Shown in pieces: positions 23,207-40,275 of a DNA stretch of 43,734 nucleotides. How positions within the stretch are numbered: the first letter of the stretch is position 1; each line of letters opens with the position of its first letter. Source of the stretch: a virus; the IMG/VR virus record IMGVR_UViG_3300025096_000042, positions 1 to 43,734 of that record; one strand, 5' to 3'. The position numbers were made by a program, and so were the translations under genes. The notes beneath the pieces are model-generated. The model was not told the origin of the DNA. It worked only from the letters and a program-made list of their open reading frames with translations, and ran no database searches.

Positions 23207-23210
23207 GTGA

Positions 23211-23219
23211 TATTTATAG
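23211..23219 (+). promoter_or_regulatory. Promoter-like TATTTATAG before the NMNAT/ligase-like fusion
   Basis: TATTTATAG starts 29 nt before the chosen ATG (23240). Identical or near-identical sequences lie at similar distances before genes starting at 37700, 39112 and, on the other strand, 39013. No Shine-Dalgarno follows. Confidence 0.45.
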
Positions 23220-23239
23220 TAAACCCCAACTATACTAAT

Positions 23240-25915
23240 ATGAGAAAGATAGCAATTTACGCCGGTCGGTTCCAACCCTTTCACAAAGGGCACGATTCTG
23301 CGTACAAACAATTGGTTAAAAAATTTGGAGAGGAAAATGTATATGTTGCAACTTCCGAACCCAAGGAAACTTCTGCGAGAAATCCATTTAAGTTTGGTGA
23401 AAAGAAACAGCTTATGACTGCTATGTTTGATATTCCATCAGAACGGGTGGTTCAGGTCAAAAATCCTTACAAACCAGTAGAAGTTCTTTCCAAATTTGAT
23501 CCAAAAAAGACTGCTTTTATAACGGCAGTCGGTGAAAAGGACGGTGATAGACTATCTCATGGTAAATATTTCAAGAAATATGATGCTGACGATGAATTAT
23601 CCCCGTATCAAGACAACGGATACTTTGTAACTGTACCCAATTTCAAAGTAGACAGTGATGTAATGTCTGCCACGAAGATTAGAGATAAAATGGGGAACCC
23701 TGCAATCTCTACTGAAGACAAAATCGACTTTTTCAAGAAATTATATGGAAAATTTGATCCAAAACTCTTCCGTATGATGAAAGACACCATCCAAGACCGT
23801 TCTGTAGAACCTGCAAAGTCGGCTGCACCGAAGAAAACGAAGCGTGATTCTTCAATTCTTAAGAAAAGGGTCACAAATCCCCAAACTAGAAGGGATATAT
23901 TGGTCAGAACCGCGCTTCAATACGACAAAAATCACCCAGTTTATAAACTCGCTAAGAGAATGTTCGAACGGGGACCAATGAAAGAGGTGTTTGAGTCGGT
24001 AATGATTGAAAATGCTCTGATTGATCAATATAATTCGTTAGTTGATAATTTTATTGGTAAAAAAGGAAGTGATTATAAGATTGAGATGGGGGATTCACAA
24101 ACAACCATTGAAGATAAGTGTAAAGAAGCATATAAACAGGGTGTATTTTATTATCCACTGGTTCATGCTCTTGGTACAGTCATAGAAGATGAAGAACCTG
24201 CTTTAGACGAGAAGGAAACCTCAACAGCCCGTGTAAGACGGTTCTATAAGAGACACCCAGAGAGAGTTAGACGGTATTTGAAGAAAACTCAAGATGATCG
24301 TGTGATTAGAAACCGTGATCGACAACGGGCAATCCGTAAACATGGTAAATCAAAGATGAAAAATCACGATGTTCATCATCCAAATGGTGTGAATGGTGGT
24401 AAATGGGTTCTTGCTAAGAAGGATCATGGCCGGGACAGAAAAAACCCGAAGAGTAAGTTAAAGAATGAGGTTTTTCTTGTAGAAGGTGGGGCCGCTGGCC
24501 ACATGATGCACCCATATGAAGATATGGATTTGACGTTTGATGATTATAAAGAGATTATTGATCAAGGTCTTTTAGGTTCAATGGGTGATGAAAAGCCTGT
24601 TACAGAGAAATTAGATGGACAGAATATAGCATTTTCTGTTGTTGATAGTGAAATCAGATTTGCTAGAAATAAGGGACATGTGAAAAATGGTGGTGATAAG
24701 GCCTTGACAGTTAAGGGAATGATGGATAAATTTAAGGATAGAGGTGGTATTGAACGTGCATTTGTAGGAGCGGCCAGAGACCTTGAAACAGCTATTAAAG
24801 TTTTGCCAGACAAACAAGTTAAAGAAATGTTTGGTAATGGAAGTAAATTTATGTCTGTAGAAATTATTTTACCCGATTCTACAAACGTTATTCCTTATGA
24901 CAAAAACGTTCTTGTTTTCCACGGTACTATTGAATATGATAGAGATGGAAAGCCAGTATCTTCAAGTCAGGATGATGCAAAAACATTTAGTGATCAACTT
25001 TTGAAAGTTGGTCAACAAAAACAAAAATTGTTCGGACTTCAAGGACCAAAGGTAATTACGTTTAATAATAAAGATATTAAAAAGATGGAAAAGAAGGCTA
25101 AGAAATTCCATAGAGACATTGATAGACTTAAAAGTGAGTTTGATTTAAAAGATGGTGATCTGGTTCGGGACTATTATGCTAAATGGTGGGAACGTGAGGT
25201 CAAAAAAGAGTTGGAACAAAAAGGACTGACAGCGGATGACGATACAATGGAAGGATTGGTTAATCGTTTTGCTTTTGATGACAAGACAATGCAATTAAAA
25301 GACATTAGAGATCCTGAAATTAGAAAATGGACATCTGAATATCAGAAAACCAGATTGCGTGATGTTAAAAAGGTTGCACAAAATCCATTTGAGATGGTAT
25401 TCTTAAAGGTGGGTGCTAGTTCCTTGGAAAGAATAAAAGATTTCTTAGCATCAAACAACCCTGGCGCAATTGATCAGATTAGAAAGGAACTGAAGACAGC
25501 AATGAATTCAGTAAGAGCAGAAGATGTAAGTGATCAAGCAGAAAAATTAAGAAAGGAATTTGATAGATTAGAACAAGTTGGAATAGATAAGCTGGTTCCA
25601 TCAGAGGGAATTGTGTTTATATATAAAGGACAGCCCTACAAATTTACAGGCACATTTGCTCCATTGAATCAAATTCTTGGTACATTTAAATTTGGTGGTA
25701 AACCAACTGGAGAGCCCGATGTTGGAGCGCCTGGAGCGCCTGCTGGAGCACCGGACCCCGAAAAGGATAAGGATTTTATAAAGAAATACTATAGTGATCG
25801 GGTCAGAAATCCAATGACGGGCAAGGACATCACAGTTCAGTCCGCGTTAACTTATGACAAGACACATCCAGTATATAATGTAGCAATTAGGTATTTATCA
25901 AGTAAAATGGGATAA
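23240..25915 (+). CDS. Multidomain NMNAT-like / HNH-like / KxDG ligase-like enzyme (891 aa)
   Basis: The N-terminus is a nucleotidylyltransferase of the NMNAT/cytidylyltransferase superfamily: GRFQPFHKGH (residues 9-18, HxGH motif) and SATKIR, equivalent to the family ISxTxxR motif. About residues 206-242 form an NPxT-core module. A basic segment with NHDVHHPNG (375-383) resembles an HNH nuclease core. Residues 455-460 (TEKLDG, Lys457) match motif I of ATP-dependent ligases. SEGIVF (788-793) and YKFTG (800-804) match motifs IV and V. A second NPxT module ends the protein. The frame opens at GTG 23207, but that would translate a promoter-like element, so ATG 23240 directly before the NMNAT motif is preferred. 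Substrates are unknown; RNA/DNA end repair or NAD metabolism are possible. Confidence 0.75.
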   Translation: MRKIAIYAGRFQPFHKGHDSAYKQLVKKFGEENVYVATSEPKETSARNPFKFGEKKQLMTAMFDIPSERVVQVKNPYKPVEVLSKFDPKKTAFITAVGEKDGDRLSHGKYFKKYDADDELSPYQDNGYFVTVPNFKVDSDVMSATKIRDKMGNPAISTEDKIDFFKKLYGKFDPKLFRMMKDTIQDRSVEPAKSAAPKKTKRDSSILKKRVTNPQTRRDILVRTALQYDKNHPVYKLAKRMFERGPMKEVFESVMIENALIDQYNSLVDNFIGKKGSDYKIEMGDSQTTIEDKCKEAYKQGVFYYPLVHALGTVIEDEEPALDEKETSTARVRRFYKRHPERVRRYLKKTQDDRVIRNRDRQRAIRKHGKSKMKNHDVHHPNGVNGGKWVLAKKDHGRDRKNPKSKLKNEVFLVEGGAAGHMMHPYEDMDLTFDDYKEIIDQGLLGSMGDEKPVTEKLDGQNIAFSVVDSEIRFARNKGHVKNGGDKALTVKGMMDKFKDRGGIERAFVGAARDLETAIKVLPDKQVKEMFGNGSKFMSVEIILPDSTNVIPYDKNVLVFHGTIEYDRDGKPVSSSQDDAKTFSDQLLKVGQQKQKLFGLQGPKVITFNNKDIKKMEKKAKKFHRDIDRLKSEFDLKDGDLVRDYYAKWWEREVKKELEQKGLTADDDTMEGLVNRFAFDDKTMQLKDIRDPEIRKWTSEYQKTRLRDVKKVAQNPFEMVFLKVGASSLERIKDFLASNNPGAIDQIRKELKTAMNSVRAEDVSDQAEKLRKEFDRLEQVGIDKLVPSEGIVFIYKGQPYKFTGTFAPLNQILGTFKFGGKPTGEPDVGAPGAPAGAPDPEKDKDFIKKYYSDRVRNPMTGKDITVQSALTYDKTHPVYNVAIRYLSSKMG

Positions 25916-34794: not shown

Positions 34795-36003
34795 ATGGCA
34801 GAATTTACAAACGATTTACTCAAGGAAGCTATTGCTGATGCAGAGCAAGTTCGCGAAACCGCTATTGCAAATGCAAAGCTACAGCTTGAAGAGTCAATCG
34901 CACCTACCATTAAGGCAGAATTAACAAAAGCTCTTTCGCAATCAGAAGAGGAAGTCCAAGAAACCGTTCAGGAAGCTGAAGAGGTTGACGAGGCTCACGA
35001 CCCAAAGGGTGCAGAAGCCAATGACTTTGCTGAGGTTGGAGAGGGCGTAGAGTCTGTAGATGAAGATTCAGAAGTTGAAATCGTCAATGAGGACGAAGTT
35101 TCAGAAGAGACTGAAGAAATTTCGGAAGAAATTGAAGAGGACGATGAGGTCGAGTCGGTGGACGAGATTGATATTACCGTCCGCGGTGCCACAACTACTG
35201 TTAGTGGACCGGAAATTAGTGCACCCGTCACGGAAGAGGATGAGGAAGACGAGGAAGAAGAGGATGTGGAAGATCTGGATGATGAGGAAGCTGAAGAGGA
35301 CGAGGATCTTGAAGATTTAGACCTTGAAGCTATTATCCGTGAACTTCAAAGGGAAGTCGATGCACTTAGTGAAGATGATGATGATTGGGACGATGAAGAA
35401 GAGGAAGAAGAAGTTCCCTCGCCTGAAGAAGATGAAGAGGACGAGGAGGAAGTTGAAGAAGGAGATGAAGAGGAAGAAGTTGAAGATGAAGAGGATGAGG
35501 ACGAGGAAGAAGTTGAAGAAGACCTCGACTTAGACGCTATTCTTCGTGAAATTGAGGCCGAGATGTCTGATGAAGATGACGCCGAACTGGCCCAGGAAAA
35601 TACGAGACTACAAGGTGAGCTGGACGAATATCGTAAAGCTGTTGAATTGCTACGCGGAAAGCTCAATGAAGTCAATCTTCTAAATGCTAAGTTATTGTTT
35701 ACAAATAAGTTGTTTAAAGGTAAGGAACTATCACAAGACCAGAAAATTCATGTTGTCGAGACATTTGATCTTGCTACGACAATCCGTGAAGTGAAACTTC
35801 TCTATGCTACATTAGCAGAAGCTACGATTAATGTTCCTACTAAACAGAAGAAGCAAACTACTTCCTCAACGGAAGTTGTTGCTGAAGGAATTGCTTCAAA
35901 GGTAGTTGGTAGCACTGCTCCAACGACTGAGGTTCTAGAAGAAGATCAATTTGCCGGGTTTAGACAAAGAATGAAACAACTAGCCGGCATTAATATACTT
36001 TAA
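34795..36003 (+). CDS. Prohead scaffold/core protein, gp22-like, hyperacidic (402 aa)
   Basis: Main scaffold on which the capsid assembles, then degraded by the prohead protease. Assigned from position directly before the capsid gene, extended helical character, and a conserved-looking C-terminus (FRQRMKQLAGINIL) similar to scaffold ends in marine T4-like phages as I recall them. The middle (about 50-260) is dominated by Glu and Asp runs. It contains two copies of a helix beginning EDLDL (residues 173 and 242, exactly 69 apart). Residues about 262-300 form a coiled coil. T4 gp22 is 269 residues, so this one is enlarged by the acidic region. Strong Shine-Dalgarno; 22 nt before the capsid gene. 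Confidence 0.78.
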   Translation: MAEFTNDLLKEAIADAEQVRETAIANAKLQLEESIAPTIKAELTKALSQSEEEVQETVQEAEEVDEAHDPKGAEANDFAEVGEGVESVDEDSEVEIVNEDEVSEETEEISEEIEEDDEVESVDEIDITVRGATTTVSGPEISAPVTEEDEEDEEEEDVEDLDDEEAEEDEDLEDLDLEAIIRELQREVDALSEDDDDWDDEEEEEEVPSPEEDEEDEEEVEEGDEEEEVEDEEDEDEEEVEEDLDLDAILREIEAEMSDEDDAELAQENTRLQGELDEYRKAVELLRGKLNEVNLLNAKLLFTNKLFKGKELSQDQKIHVVETFDLATTIREVKLLYATLAEATINVPTKQKKQTTSSTEVVAEGIASKVVGSTAPTTEVLEEDQFAGFRQRMKQLAGINIL

Positions 36004-36025: not shown

Positions 36026-37576
36026 ATGAGTGATGTTTCGAGCTTTTTAAACGAAGCCACTACAGCTCATAAACAACTCACCGATGCGGCCAGAAGCATG
36101 GCTGATAAGTGGGAAGACTCTGGCCTTCTGGATGGATTGGAAGGACACGAGCGTAGTGGTATGGCTGTTCTGCTTGAGAACCAAGCGGGTCAGCTTCTAA
36201 ATGAAGTATCTTCGATAGGTAATGAGTCGTGGTCAGGTGTGGCTCTACCTCTCGTTCGCAAGGTTCTGGGGCAGATTGCTGCCAAGAACTTTGTATCGGT
36301 TCAGCCAATGAACCTTCCTGCTGGGTTAGTCTTTTTTATGGACTTCCAGTATGGAACGGCAGTTGGTGACCGCACTTCTGGCGATTCCATTTATGGAATT
36401 ACCAGTGGAAGTGGAACCTTACCACGCACAGGTTTATATGGTGCTGGTAGGTTTGCTTATTCAGTGAACGATCAGACGGTAACAGGTCTTACAAACGTGG
36501 CGATTAGAACCGCTTCTGCTGCTGACCTGAACTATGAGACAACTTCGTCTTCGACCGTTTACATGATGCACCAGATTTCAGGTTCGTCAATTGCTTCGAA
36601 CGCTGATCTTAAAGCTTGTCGGTCGTTCGTTCCTTCGGGATCGGTCGCTGACTTTGGTGCTTGGTTGCCACAATTTACGAAGCTCACCAACGGTGGAAGT
36701 GTTGTTCAGTTTGTTGTACCTTACGGGGCCGCAGCAAATCTCGCAGCTATCACCTATAGTGTAGAGCCAACGATTGCAGCACGGGGTGATTTTGAGGATA
36801 CGGATGGAAGTACTGATCTCGCTATTCCTGAAATTAATCTGTCGCTACGGTCAGAGACTATTGCAGCTAAGACGCGTAAGCTGAAAGCTGTATGGTCGCC
36901 AGAACTCGCACAGGATCTTAACGCTTATCATAGTGTTGATGCTGAGGCTGAGTTGACAGGTATGTTGAGTGATCACATTTCGTTAGAAGTTGATTTGGAG
37001 ATCCTAGACATGCTTATCGTTGAAGCAACCACAACCGACTACTGGTCGGCTGAGATTGGCAAGGTTTATGATGCAGGAACAGCTGCTTTCGCGGCTACTC
37101 CTTCTGCTGGTACTGCCTGGACTAATATGACTTGGTACCAGACGCTTGGACAGAAGATGCAGAAGGTTTCGAACCGAATTCACCAGCTCACCCTTCGTGG
37201 TGGTGCTAACTTCGCGGTTGTTTCACCAACCGTTGCTACGATTCTTGAAACCATCCCAGGTTTCATGGCTGGCACAAACGGTGACGCGCAGGAATTTGCT
37301 GCTGGCGTAACTTCAGTTGGTTCGTTCCAGAATCGTTATACGATTTACAAGAACCCGTATATGGTAGAGAATGTTGTTCTATTGGGCTACCGCGGGCCTA
37401 ACTTCTTAGAGACAGGGGCGGTATATGCACCGTATATTCCGTTGATCATGACACCTCTAGTGTATGATCCGACTAACTTCACACCGCGCAGGGGCGTTAT
37501 GACCCGTTACGCGAAGAAGGTAGTCCGTCCTGAGTTCTTCGGGAAGATCATCATCGACCGCTTGGAGCTAATCTAA
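36026..37576 (+). CDS. Major capsid protein, gp23-like (516 aa)
   Basis: Forms the hexamers of the icosahedral head. The length matches T4 gp23 (521), and the family landmarks include an N-terminal helical pro-region, LPLVRKVLGQIAAKNFVSVQPM after it, and a C-terminal RYAKKVVRPEFFGKIIIDRL. A protease site L-N-E at residues 58-60 (QLLNE before VSS) sits where T4 gp23 is cut (after residue 65), predicting removal of the first 60 residues. The gene is visibly GC-richer in third codon positions than its neighbours, as expected for very high expression. It has a GGAG Shine-Dalgarno and ends at a strong terminator. Confidence 0.93.
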   Translation: MSDVSSFLNEATTAHKQLTDAARSMADKWEDSGLLDGLEGHERSGMAVLLENQAGQLLNEVSSIGNESWSGVALPLVRKVLGQIAAKNFVSVQPMNLPAGLVFFMDFQYGTAVGDRTSGDSIYGITSGSGTLPRTGLYGAGRFAYSVNDQTVTGLTNVAIRTASAADLNYETTSSSTVYMMHQISGSSIASNADLKACRSFVPSGSVADFGAWLPQFTKLTNGGSVVQFVVPYGAAANLAAITYSVEPTIAARGDFEDTDGSTDLAIPEINLSLRSETIAAKTRKLKAVWSPELAQDLNAYHSVDAEAELTGMLSDHISLEVDLEILDMLIVEATTTDYWSAEIGKVYDAGTAAFAATPSAGTAWTNMTWYQTLGQKMQKVSNRIHQLTLRGGANFAVVSPTVATILETIPGFMAGTNGDAQEFAAGVTSVGSFQNRYTIYKNPYMVENVVLLGYRGPNFLETGAVYAPYIPLIMTPLVYDPTNFTPRRGVMTRYAKKVVRPEFFGKIIIDRLELI

Positions 37577-37591
37577 GTTAGTTGATGATAT

Positions 37592-37603
37592 TACCTTCGG
37601 GTA
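37592..37603 (+). other. Small UUCG-loop hairpin after the capsid gene
   Basis: TACC-TTCG-GGTA forms a 4 bp stem with a C(UUCG)G tetraloop, 12 nt before the main terminator hairpin. It may protect the capsid mRNA 3' end; stability by itself is modest. Confidence 0.45.
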
Positions 37604-37615
37604 GATAGTAAAAAG

Positions 37616-37648
37616 AGGGTGGGGCTTCGGCCCCACCCTTCTTTTTTT
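37616..37648 (+). terminator. Strong rho-independent terminator after the capsid gene
   Basis: A 10 bp GC-rich stem (37616-37625 with 37630-37639) closes on a UUCG tetraloop in the extra-stable C(UUCG)G context and is followed by a T-rich run to 37648. It separates the capsid transcript from the cytochrome gene. Confidence 0.93.
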
Positions 37649-37663
37649 GTAGTAACTCCATCA

Positions 37664-37679
37664 TATTTATAGATATAAT
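37664..37679 (+). promoter_or_regulatory. Promoter-like region before the cytochrome c gene
   Basis: TATTTATAG (37664-37672) overlaps into a perfect TATAAT (37674-37679). The ATG is at 37700, with a strong CGGAGGA Shine-Dalgarno between. No good -35 is seen. Lying after a strong terminator, some promoter is needed for this gene, which supports the element. Confidence 0.5.
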
Positions 37680-37699
37680 AATATGTTCGGAGGAAACTA

Positions 37700-38053
37700 A
37701 TGACCTATAAACCATTAATGATAATTGCTACACTTCTTATGTTGTTCCCCACCCAAGCATTTTCGCAGGATTGGGTCCGCCGTCTCGCTTATGTAGATCG
37801 TCCAGATAAACTTGTTGAACGAGTAATGGAAGACGAACCAATAACATATACGAGAGATGTTGCACCAATTCTTCAACAGAATTGTCAGATATGTCATCGG
37901 GCGGGATCTGTTGCTCCTATGTCTTTTATTGAATTTCGTGATGTTCGCCGTTATGCTCGTAGAATTAAAGATCAAGTTGCTAGACGGTTAATGCCTCCGT
38001 ATCATCTTGATACAGGAGTGGGTATTCAAGAAGTCAAGAATGATTGGAGATAG
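37700..38053 (+). CDS. Exported mono-haem c-type cytochrome domain (117 aa)
   Basis: Predicted periplasmic electron carrier or haem protein. Residues 1-22 are a Sec signal peptide (Lys4, a hydrophobic core, cleavage after AFS). TYTRDVAPILQQN leads into the haem-attachment site CQICH (62-66), with His66 as axial ligand; RRLMPPYHLD supplies Met98 as a probable second ligand. This arrangement matches the N-terminal cytochrome module of larger bacterial proteins in which a KND-type segment continues into LSDEE and further domains. Here translation stops right after VKNDWR, giving a mature domain of about 95 residues. Two stops occur within 6 nt and no frame restores the family continuation, so it is a trimmed, stand-alone version. 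A strong Shine-Dalgarno argues it is expressed. Confidence 0.8.
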   Translation: MTYKPLMIIATLLMLFPTQAFSQDWVRRLAYVDRPDKLVERVMEDEPITYTRDVAPILQQNCQICHRAGSVAPMSFIEFRDVRRYARRIKDQVARRLMPPYHLDTGVGIQEVKNDWR

Positions 38054-38102
38054 TACTGAACCGCTTTCGCTTAGTGCACCAGAGGTAGCTACAACCTAAA
38101 TC

Positions 38103-38285
38103 TCATGTACATATTAGTTTTTTGTCAAGAGTAACCATAATTTCGTTGGTAATAACATATACAGCTGCCTCCGAATTAAGATTTGCATTCATTCTACCGT
38201 GTTTTGTTAACACATCAGCAATGCGTTGTCTTACAATCTTTTGTTTTCTATCTTCTTCTTTGATAAATTTTTGATAATCTAACAT
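38103..38285 (-). CDS. Small hypothetical protein, minus strand (60 aa)
   Basis: Unrecognised. Charged helical N-terminus (KFIKEEDRKQKIVRQRIAD) and a mixed C-terminus, with no cysteine cluster or membrane segment. It follows the HAD phosphatase gene by 2 nt on the same strand, so it is probably co-transcribed and translationally coupled. It is convergent with the cytochrome gene; the 49 nt between the two stops shows no clear terminator. Confidence 0.5.
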   Translation of the reverse strand: MLDYQKFIKEEDRKQKIVRQRIADVLTKHGRMNANLNSEAAVYVITNEIMVTLDKKLICT

Positions 38286-38287
38286 AA

Positions 38288-39013
38288 CTATTCTCCATTT
38301 CCAAGTGATCGTTTGATTACACCTTTTGCTATTTGATGGGCAGGGTGTGTTTCGCCGTATTTAAGTGCAGTTTTAATTAATATCTGGTTACCAGTATTAG
38401 GATTTGTTACTCTTTGTTTTAATAATTGTGCTAATTTACCTACATTTTTACCTCTTTTTTTAGTAGGATCTTCTTTTTCATATCCTTGGATAAGTGGTTC
38501 ATATTCTGATTTAGGAACTAAGTGGGTTTGCAGATCAACATTTAGATCTTTGGCGATTCCTTTAACTGCATCTACATTTTTTTCGTGGTCATCAAAGAAT
38601 CTAACTGTGGTATAACCTTCTTTTTTGATTTTATTAGTTATATAGTGTGATTTTGCTCGTGGGCTTGCCGATTGTACACCCTTGATTCTGACATCCTTGG
38701 TAATTCCTATTGATTTCAGATATTTAGCAATTTGTTTTTCACTACCAATGCCTCTTGCAGTGATGATAGTTACATCGGCGTCTGGGTGTTTTATTGCTTT
38801 TTTGAATAAGTCCATATACTTTTTAACTGGTTTTGGATCTTTTATCTCCGAAAACTCTGAAAAATCAAATTCGTCGCCATCTTTTTGTACATACCCAGCA
38901 TAATCATATGGAGTTAACTGACTAACTTCTCCATCATTATGTTTTACAATAACCTTAGAATTTGAGACTACTAGAGTATTGTCAAAATCAAAAGCATATA
39001 GGGTTTTTGCCAT
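38288..39013 (-). CDS. HAD-family phosphatase with C-terminal NPxT module (241 aa)
   Basis: Haloacid-dehalogenase-type hydrolase. The catalytic motif is AFDFDNTLV (Asp9 nucleophile, Asp11 acid/base, Thr13). TITARG supplies motif II near Thr85, Lys111 or Lys121 may be motif III, and FFDDHEKN (Asp141, Asp142) is motif IV. The layout recalls phosphatase domains of polynucleotide kinases and small phage nucleotidases; no kinase P-loop is present. Residues 197-232 form a C-terminal module (LKQRVTNPNTG, then TALKYGETHP) shared with two places in the 891-residue enzyme at 23240. The gene is on the minus strand, divergent from the neck genes. A nucleic-acid end-processing role beside the ligase-like protein is an inference. 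Confidence 0.78.
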   Translation of the reverse strand: MAKTLYAFDFDNTLVVSNSKVIVKHNDGEVSQLTPYDYAGYVQKDGDEFDFSEFSEIKDPKPVKKYMDLFKKAIKHPDADVTIITARGIGSEKQIAKYLKSIGITKDVRIKGVQSASPRAKSHYITNKIKKEGYTTVRFFDDHEKNVDAVKGIAKDLNVDLQTHLVPKSEYEPLIQGYEKEDPTKKRGKNVGKLAQLLKQRVTNPNTGNQILIKTALKYGETHPAHQIAKGVIKRSLGNGE

Positions 39014-39045
39014 TTTATGAATTCCGTAATATATATTTGGTTATA

Positions 39046-39082
39046 CATAAATAGTCTTCTTAAGGTTAACCTACTATTTATA
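39046..39082. promoter_or_regulatory. Symmetric divergent promoter-like region
   Basis: On +, CTATTTATAG (39073-39082) lies 38 nt before the neck gene ATG. On -, CTATTTATG (39054-39046) lies a similar distance before the HAD gene ATG. A perfect palindrome GGTTAACC (39063-39070) sits between them, suggesting a shared control site. Confidence 0.5.
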
Positions 39083-39111
39083 GTCAGGAAAATTGCACAG
39101 AGAGAATATTA

Positions 39112-40275
39112 ATGGCAACCACACCAGAATACATTTCCTATGATGGTAATCCAACAAACCCAAATGGATTAACTCCTTTTGCTATCTTTGATAGTGAATC
39201 TCTATTTCAGACGGATGGTCCAAAGGTTGCAAATTTTGTAGCAACTCGTTTGGGTTATCCTATAATGGATGTAGAACTTCAAGATCAACAAATTTATGCG
39301 TGTTTGGAAGAGTCGATTATTGAATATGGAAAACAGGTAAATCAATTTAGAATTAGAGATAATATGTATACCCTTATGGGGACATCTACTAATGATGAGA
39401 TTACCCAAAAAAATATTGCAGCAACTCCACTGGACCAAGTAGTTCGTTTGTCTGGTGATTATGGTACCGAAGCATTATCAGGCGGCCCCACAGAATTGAA
39501 GAGAGGATATATCACTGCTTCTGCTAATACAGCTTCTTATGATTTGAATGCTTTGTGGGCAACTCCAAGTGAGAGTGGTGATCCAATTGAAATTAGAAAG
39601 ATATATCACAAAGGTGCCCCAGCTATTTCTAGATATTATGACCCATTTGCTGCCACGGGTTTGGGTATTACAAATTTATTTGCTGAATTTGGATTTGATG
39701 ATTATTCTCCGGCGATTACATTTGTTATGATGCCAGCTTATGAAGATATGCTTCGTGTTCAAGCTATTGAAATTAATGACACAATTAGAAAAAGTATTCA
39801 TTCATTTACACTTTCTAATAATAAACTTAGAATTTCACCAATTCCAAAAAAGTCCTATGCAATCTTTTTTGATTATTATCTTAAGAATGAAAAGACAGGA
39901 TCACAGGTACAATCCGGCAGTGTTAATGAATTTGTGAGTGATGTTTCAAATGTTCCAATGTCTCATATTAAATATGGAAATATTAATTCGGTTGGAAAAG
40001 TTTGGATTTTTAAATATACATTAGCTCTTGCAAAAGAGGTTCTTGGACTTATTCGTTCTAAGTATCAGTCAGTTCCTATTCCAAATCAAGATATTAGGAT
40101 GGACGGGGATATGCTTAGGAGAGAAGCTGTTCAAGAAAAACAAGAATTAATTAAAGAATTACAAGAAACCTTAGAGAAGTCTGGATTTCATGCACAGATG
40201 AAAGCGCAAGCTGAAGCTGCAGAACACCAAGGACAGATTCTTCAGAAGGTGCCTATTCCAATTTATATAAAGTAA
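39112..40275 (+). CDS. Neck protein, gp13-like (387 aa)
   Basis: Head-completion protein that, with gp14, seals the packaged head and forms the tail attachment site. The N-terminal region (FVATRLGYPIMDVELQDQQI, then a helix with EESIIEYG) has the typical gp13 layout, followed by beta-rich segments and a helical C-terminus rich in Gln, Glu and Ala. It is longer than T4 gp13 (309). It begins the neck-to-sheath block, 1 nt before the gp14-like gene. An AT-rich promoter-like element and an AGAGAG sequence precede the ATG. Confidence 0.75.
   Translation: MATTPEYISYDGNPTNPNGLTPFAIFDSESLFQTDGPKVANFVATRLGYPIMDVELQDQQIYACLEESIIEYGKQVNQFRIRDNMYTLMGTSTNDEITQKNIAATPLDQVVRLSGDYGTEALSGGPTELKRGYITASANTASYDLNALWATPSESGDPIEIRKIYHKGAPAISRYYDPFAATGLGITNLFAEFGFDDYSPAITFVMMPAYEDMLRVQAIEINDTIRKSIHSFTLSNNKLRISPIPKKSYAIFFDYYLKNEKTGSQVQSGSVNEFVSDVSNVPMSHIKYGNINSVGKVWIFKYTLALAKEVLGLIRSKYQSVPIPNQDIRMDGDMLRREAVQEKQELIKELQETLEKSGFHAQMKAQAEAAEHQGQILQKVPIPIYIK

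Follow-up and report, generated by a model that had tools for sequence, protein, structure and literature searches.

A truncated cytochrome c gene beside the capsid gene of a T4-like phage, and its intact relatives with a predicted copper monooxygenase-like domain in uncultivated viral contigs

The gene amoC has been described next to the capsid gene gp23 in T4-like phage, where it has its own promoter and terminator, and the position beside gp23 is a known AMG hotspot (PMC8115048). Genes for cbb3-type cytochrome c oxidase have been seen in Indian Ocean viromes (PMC3474794). To the extent that the amoC report treats such cargo, the genes for respiration or oxygen chemistry carried by phages are mostly photosynthetic or membrane-bound, as with amoC or nirK/norB (PMC8115048). 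The window analysed here, a stretch of 43,734 nucleotides of viral DNA (IMG/VR record IMGVR_UViG_3300025096_000042), belongs to a T4-like phage, as judged from its gp23, which is recognised by Pfam and is about 50% identical to the capsid proteins of Flavobacterium immuto phages and Microcystis phage Mel-JY01. A short ORF behind this gp23 had been read in an initial annotation as a cytochrome c acquired by the phage. Our analysis makes it likely that this ORF is a truncated remnant, probably without function, of a gene specifying a protein of roughly 440 residues which many uncultivated phages represented by IMG/VR contigs carry whole, often beside the capsid gene.

The ORF (Table 1) starts with an ATG directly preceded by the Shine-Dalgarno sequence GGAGG and comprises 117 codons, which specify a hydrophobic N-terminal stretch, with a 9-residue Kyte-Doolittle mean of up to 2.9, ahead of TQAFSQ, a CxxCH haem-attachment motif (CQICH, residues 62-66) and a candidate distal Met ligand, Met98, within 'MPP'. 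It is more than a chance reading frame, since four other viral contigs have ORFs in this place whose products are 100, 90, 85 and 49% identical to its own, and Gemmatimonadota proteins are up to 86% identical to it over residues 45-117. The initial annotation had listed a signal peptide, a single CxxCH site, a candidate Met ligand and a strong Shine-Dalgarno, all placed between a strong capsid terminator and a minus-strand island, and every one of these elements was recovered, the island consisting of two consecutive ORFs. A phage-encoded protein with a c-type haem site, in its own cassette behind the gp23 terminator, as proposed there, is what the sequence indicates, and the hydrophobic N-terminus, judged to be a signal peptide, suggests that the product is exported. 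The promoter-like box also claimed for the cassette found partial support: the TATTTATA box is found 36 nt before the ORF start and recurs at a like spacing, 37 nt, upstream of gp13, but a sigma-70 scan found no site in front of the ORF and the TATTTATA motif is not enriched across the whole window (7 occurrences versus 4.7 expected), so that its role as a promoter is tentative.

Table 1. Features of the gp23-gp13 region, in window coordinates
Feature	Position	Strand	Basis
gp23-type major capsid protein, bordering the cargo site on the left	36026..37576	+	Pfam Gp23, E 7e-73
Intrinsic terminator of gp23	37615..37640	+	11-bp stem, T-tract, -24.7 kcal/mol
TATTTATA box, possible late promoter	37664..37671	+	tentative
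Truncated gene: signal peptide and incomplete c-type cytochrome domain, 117 aa	37700..38053	+	ORF list, Pfam, relatives
53-nt filler replacing about 1 kb of the sister phages	38052..38104	+	homology breakpoints versus L002
60-aa ORF of the cargo site	38103..38285	-	present in L002 too, after the intact gene
241-aa HAD-like ORF of the cargo site	38288..39013	-	DFDNT motif by eye, weak Pfam matches
gp13-like neck protein by position, right border	39112..40275	+	synteny; no clear Pfam match

The comparison with sister phages identified the ORF as the first part of a longer gene. At the same site L002, L003/L035 and L004 carry a gene for 442-447 aa, and the relatives of the window ORF are longer by about 330 residues. 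About 1 kb from codon 118 onward, covering the final helix of the cytochrome fold as well as the entire second domain, is missing from the window and from the near-identical contig L001, in which the same 117-aa ORF is found. Homology between the window and L002 is unbroken up to 38051 and, after a gap, is found again from 38105. No source for the filler in between was found among the loci compared, and among viral contigs only L001 has it. Residues 118-446 of the intact protein have left no trace elsewhere in the window, and copper-domain sequence is thus absent from it. An assembly or recombination artefact, with the real phage carrying an intact gene, is conceivable for a metagenome contig whose filler cannot be traced and whose cargo site is rearranged even among near-identical strains. 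We nevertheless consider it very unlikely: the separately assembled L001, which is 99.3% identical to the window and differs from it at 64 scattered positions, none of them inside the gene or at the junction, has exactly the same junction and filler, which argues against an assembly error or a chimera, and the flanks rejoin in synteny. It is extremely improbable that recoding or frameshifting past codon 117 extends the protein by a tail that stands in for the missing helix. The filler read in a shifted frame gives STEPLSLSAPEVATT, loosely like the SLSxxEVAT of some paralogs, but this similarity is not significant (249 of 1000 shuffles were as good), there is no recognised slippery site and the tail stops after 17 residues. 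On the same shuffles, the filler was also rejected as a leftover of another paralog's helix.

The deletion reaches into the cytochrome domain itself. The Pfam model Cytochrome_CBB3 matches, but with scores below the curated cut-off of 27 bits both for the window ORF (17.2) and for L002 (22.0). This match covers positions 5-68 of the 68 of the model in L002, the end of the model being reached in full-length relatives, versus 5-53 in the window, and in the structural model of L002 a helix at residues 120-131, with pLDDT 86-89, begins just past the window cut. The window ORF, ending at residue 117, therefore lacks the C-terminal helix of the class I-like c-type cytochrome fold, and a cut inside the domain means that the fragment is not a cleanly retained haem domain. 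Accordingly, the idea that the haem domain alone had been retained, to serve as a new soluble cytochrome, is not supported; sister phages keep the whole two-domain protein, what remains after the deletion ends before the C-terminal helix, and the truncated allele was seen only in the window and in one near-identical contig, L001. Structure prediction is uninformative on whether the fragment folds, since the 117-aa model is poor (pLDDT 54) and its cytochrome core scored about as well as that of the full-length model; for the same reasons, the lack of any Foldseek match to this model says little.

It seems unlikely that the trimmed 117-aa protein still works as a periplasmic haem carrier, diverting or buffering electrons. 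Signal peptide, CxxCH, M98, Shine-Dalgarno and start are all intact, the identical allele occurs in two assemblies without differences inside the gene, and dN/dS across the 117 retained codons is low (0.11 versus L002, 0.25 versus L003), all of which would be expected of a working product; but the C-terminal helix of the domain is missing and all viral copies other than those in the two near-identical contigs are full length. Because the allele is confined to these two contigs, the low dN/dS mostly reflects the time before the truncation. In the search for relaxed selection on the window branch, the excess of window-specific changes was a trend only (Fisher p 0.13). A decaying remnant of the longer gene is the most likely interpretation of the window allele.

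The gp23-gp13 locus is a cargo (AMG) site of T4-like phage. An ORF syntenic with the gp13-like gene of the window was found in L001, L002, L004, L040, L041 and most gp23 loci. The interval 37577-39111 between both borders is a mosaic, in which the window holds the gene fragment together with the 60-aa and the HAD-like ORFs; L002 holds the intact gene and the 60-aa ORF, the HAD-like ORF not being listed there, and L004 holds a 113-aa ORF, the other paralog of the gene and the HAD-like ORF. L040 and L041 have no cargo at the site (148 and 115 nt), and L038, 98.5% identical to the window up to the terminator, continues from there as other DNA. In 80 further viral loci the gp23-gp13 interval mostly measures 90-170 nt, with cargo in a minority. 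Host derivation and dispensability at the site, two of the properties by which an AMG is recognised, were both found, the former in the nesting of the phage copies within Gemmatimonadota clades and the latter in the empty sites of L040 and L041. The window allele illustrates cargo loss at a single site which among close relatives is intact, truncated, replaced or empty.

Some additional features of this region were observed. The gp23-gp13 intervals of L055, L061, L064, L067, L079 and L095 contain small related ORFs starting with MAYPE(Q/K)(R/K)Y. Just before the window's gp23, in the place of the scaffold gene, lies an extremely Asp/Glu-rich ORF (34795-36003) whose acidic repeats differ between relatives. 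The motif RVxNPxTxxxIxVxxALxYDxxHPVYxxA is encoded three times in the window, at 23867-23923 (+), 25799-25855 (+) and 38357-38413 (-), the first two copies within a 902-aa ORF (23207-25915) and the third at the C-terminus of the HAD-like ORF.

The initial annotation traced the gene to a much larger bacterial protein, and this origin stood: full-length, two-domain relatives, up to 84% identical to L002, are also present in Gemmatimonadota genomes. The tree places L002 and L035 among marine Gemmatimonadales proteins (96/94, inside 100/100) and pairs L004 with another paralog, L135 (100/100), both paralogs being present in one bacterial genome, G001. All phage copies of the group start with MxYKPLMI in the signal peptide, and the window and L004 are 83% identical in DNA over the upstream region and the start (window 37646-37761). 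The simplest reading of these sequence relationships would be two acquisitions behind one phage 5' end. The host of the window phage is probably a marine Gemmatimonadota. Between L002 and L003, the one pair compared, dN/dS of the intact gene is 0.07-0.10, which indicates strong purifying selection. Three related Gemmatimonadota genomes have 5-10 matches each to the protein and, among bacterial genomes, G001-G003, G010 and G029 have up to 15, an expanded family. With so many matches in hosts, the phage copies point to a bacterial enzyme family worth characterising.

In the intact protein the cytochrome domain is followed by a second one, seen as an all-beta domain at residues 160-432 of the predicted L002 model. 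The best 29 Foldseek matches of this model are all PHM or DBH (best E 1.6e-7), and a second aligner gave Z values of 8-10 over residues 163-431 (DBH 10.2, PHM about 9); confidence in the model is moderate (pLDDT 66, pTM 0.58) and its TM-scores against PHM are low (0.2-0.3). Six residues, H214, H215, H266, H335, H337 and M418, are candidate copper ligands, and these as well as CxxCH and M98 are invariant in every aligned row, viral (45 of 45) as well as bacterial (19 of 19). Equivalence was set by motif order and aligned range to the ligands of PHM: His107, His108, His172, His242, His244 and Met314. Judging from the predicted model, the intact protein probably resembles a PHM-type enzyme in both action and fold. 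The Pfam copper-monooxygenase models PF03712 and PF01082 matched full-length relatives only below threshold (best E 0.011), and for this reason the protein is not filed as a confirmed PHM member; PHROGs and NCBIfam hold no family for the full-length protein. Weak matches of a PDB sequence profile to hydrazine synthase and cytochrome c6 were discarded as common CxxCH similarity.

The combination of export, a c-type haem and a copper site in a single polypeptide suggests an enzyme that takes up electrons through its haem and uses them for hydroxylation at copper. The protein encoded by sister phages at this site is probably exported and has a c-type cytochrome domain at its N-terminus, followed by a type II copper monooxygenase-like domain with a predicted PHM/DBH fold. 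We propose that its haem domain would take electrons from the periplasmic chain and hand them to the copper domain, and that the latter would use O2 to hydroxylate a small molecule or peptide, so that late in infection the cell would gain a nutrient or be rid of a toxic compound through a detoxified product. The deletion with its 53-nt filler took everything from codon 118 on in the window lineage; the ribosome-binding site is still intact there, but the predicted copper site is gone and the cytochrome fold is incomplete.

According to the initial annotation c-type cytochromes are very unusual as phage auxiliary genes. Deposited phages (50,697 genomes) and PHROGs indeed yielded no relative, and no earlier report of a phage cytochrome c or PHM was found in the open-licence literature, but uncultivated viral contigs commonly carry the intact gene, which appears to constitute an undescribed phage gene family. 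Nor is the gene absent from the contigs of related phages; it is present there, but intact. A profile search retrieved 188 stretches encoding relatives in viral contigs, 80 of which were kept, and a search with L004 as query found further relatives in viral contigs, both searches together yielding 118 full-length proteins, which fall into 43 clusters when grouped at 90% identity. Seven records, contigs of 230 and 340 kb included, have T4-type portal and/or capsid genes far above the cut-off, nine further loci have gp23, gp21 or gp20 homologues beside the gene, and six more records have a terminase over the cut-off, 22 records outside the window's group thus holding T4-like head genes or terminase; the phage status of the remaining contigs is IMG/VR's own classification. 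A minority of the 188 stretches was checked individually and many contigs had no match to the four phage families tried, as might be expected if the copies were mostly bacterial DNA misfiled as viral and the family were not really phage-borne. In view of these portal, capsid and terminase records and of the five contigs with gp23 that the window's group adds, such misfiling is very improbable indeed.

In seven T4-like contigs, whose gp23 is only about 31% identical to that of the window, the gene directly follows gp23, its start lying 114-152 nt downstream, behind a terminator. A TATAAATA box was recognised by eye in 7/7 of the contigs with this arrangement; over viral copies this late-promoter box was found in 5 of 41, versus 0.6 expected, and is therefore not general. 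About 35 contigs, among L151-L201 and others, carry two different cytochrome c/PHM-like genes in tandem, and the pair in L154 (5944-8425) overlaps by 26 nt. In a tree built with a quick method and containing long branches, most first copies of the tandem pairs fall in one viral clade, adjoining L004 and its host partner, and second copies in another. We lean towards the view that exported PHM-type copper monooxygenases coupled to a c-haem are in wide use among T4-like and related phages, in many cases as two distinct paralogs in tandem, expressed late behind the capsid gene, and that the genes of the window's group come from two paralogs of one Gemmatimonadota lineage, with a phage promoter region and signal peptide common to both in front.

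If many phages indeed encode an exported haem-to-copper monooxygenase, phages would invest in periplasmic oxidation chemistry. The intact family, rather than the window fragment, is the interesting discovery and deserves follow-up. Viral amoC resembles the intact gene in being a host-derived copper monooxygenase component next to gp23 (PMC8115048), but AmoC is a membrane subunit of ammonia monooxygenase, whereas the protein described here would be an exported c-type haem protein with a PHM/DBH-like domain. The viral cbb3 oxidase is also a respiratory-chain gene found in viral fractions (PMC3474794), but it is a membrane oxidase subunit I unrelated to the intact protein. PHM and dopamine beta-hydroxylase share with the intact protein the predicted fold (residues 163-431) and the ligand order HH ... 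H ... HxH ... M; unlike these enzymes, the intact protein is fused to a c-type cytochrome domain, is bacterial or phage-encoded and stays below the Pfam cut-offs. Finally, the Gemmatimonadota paralogs have the same two-domain layout and are the evident source of the genes of the window's group, but they are chromosomal and full length, whereas the phage copies bear a phage-specific signal peptide.
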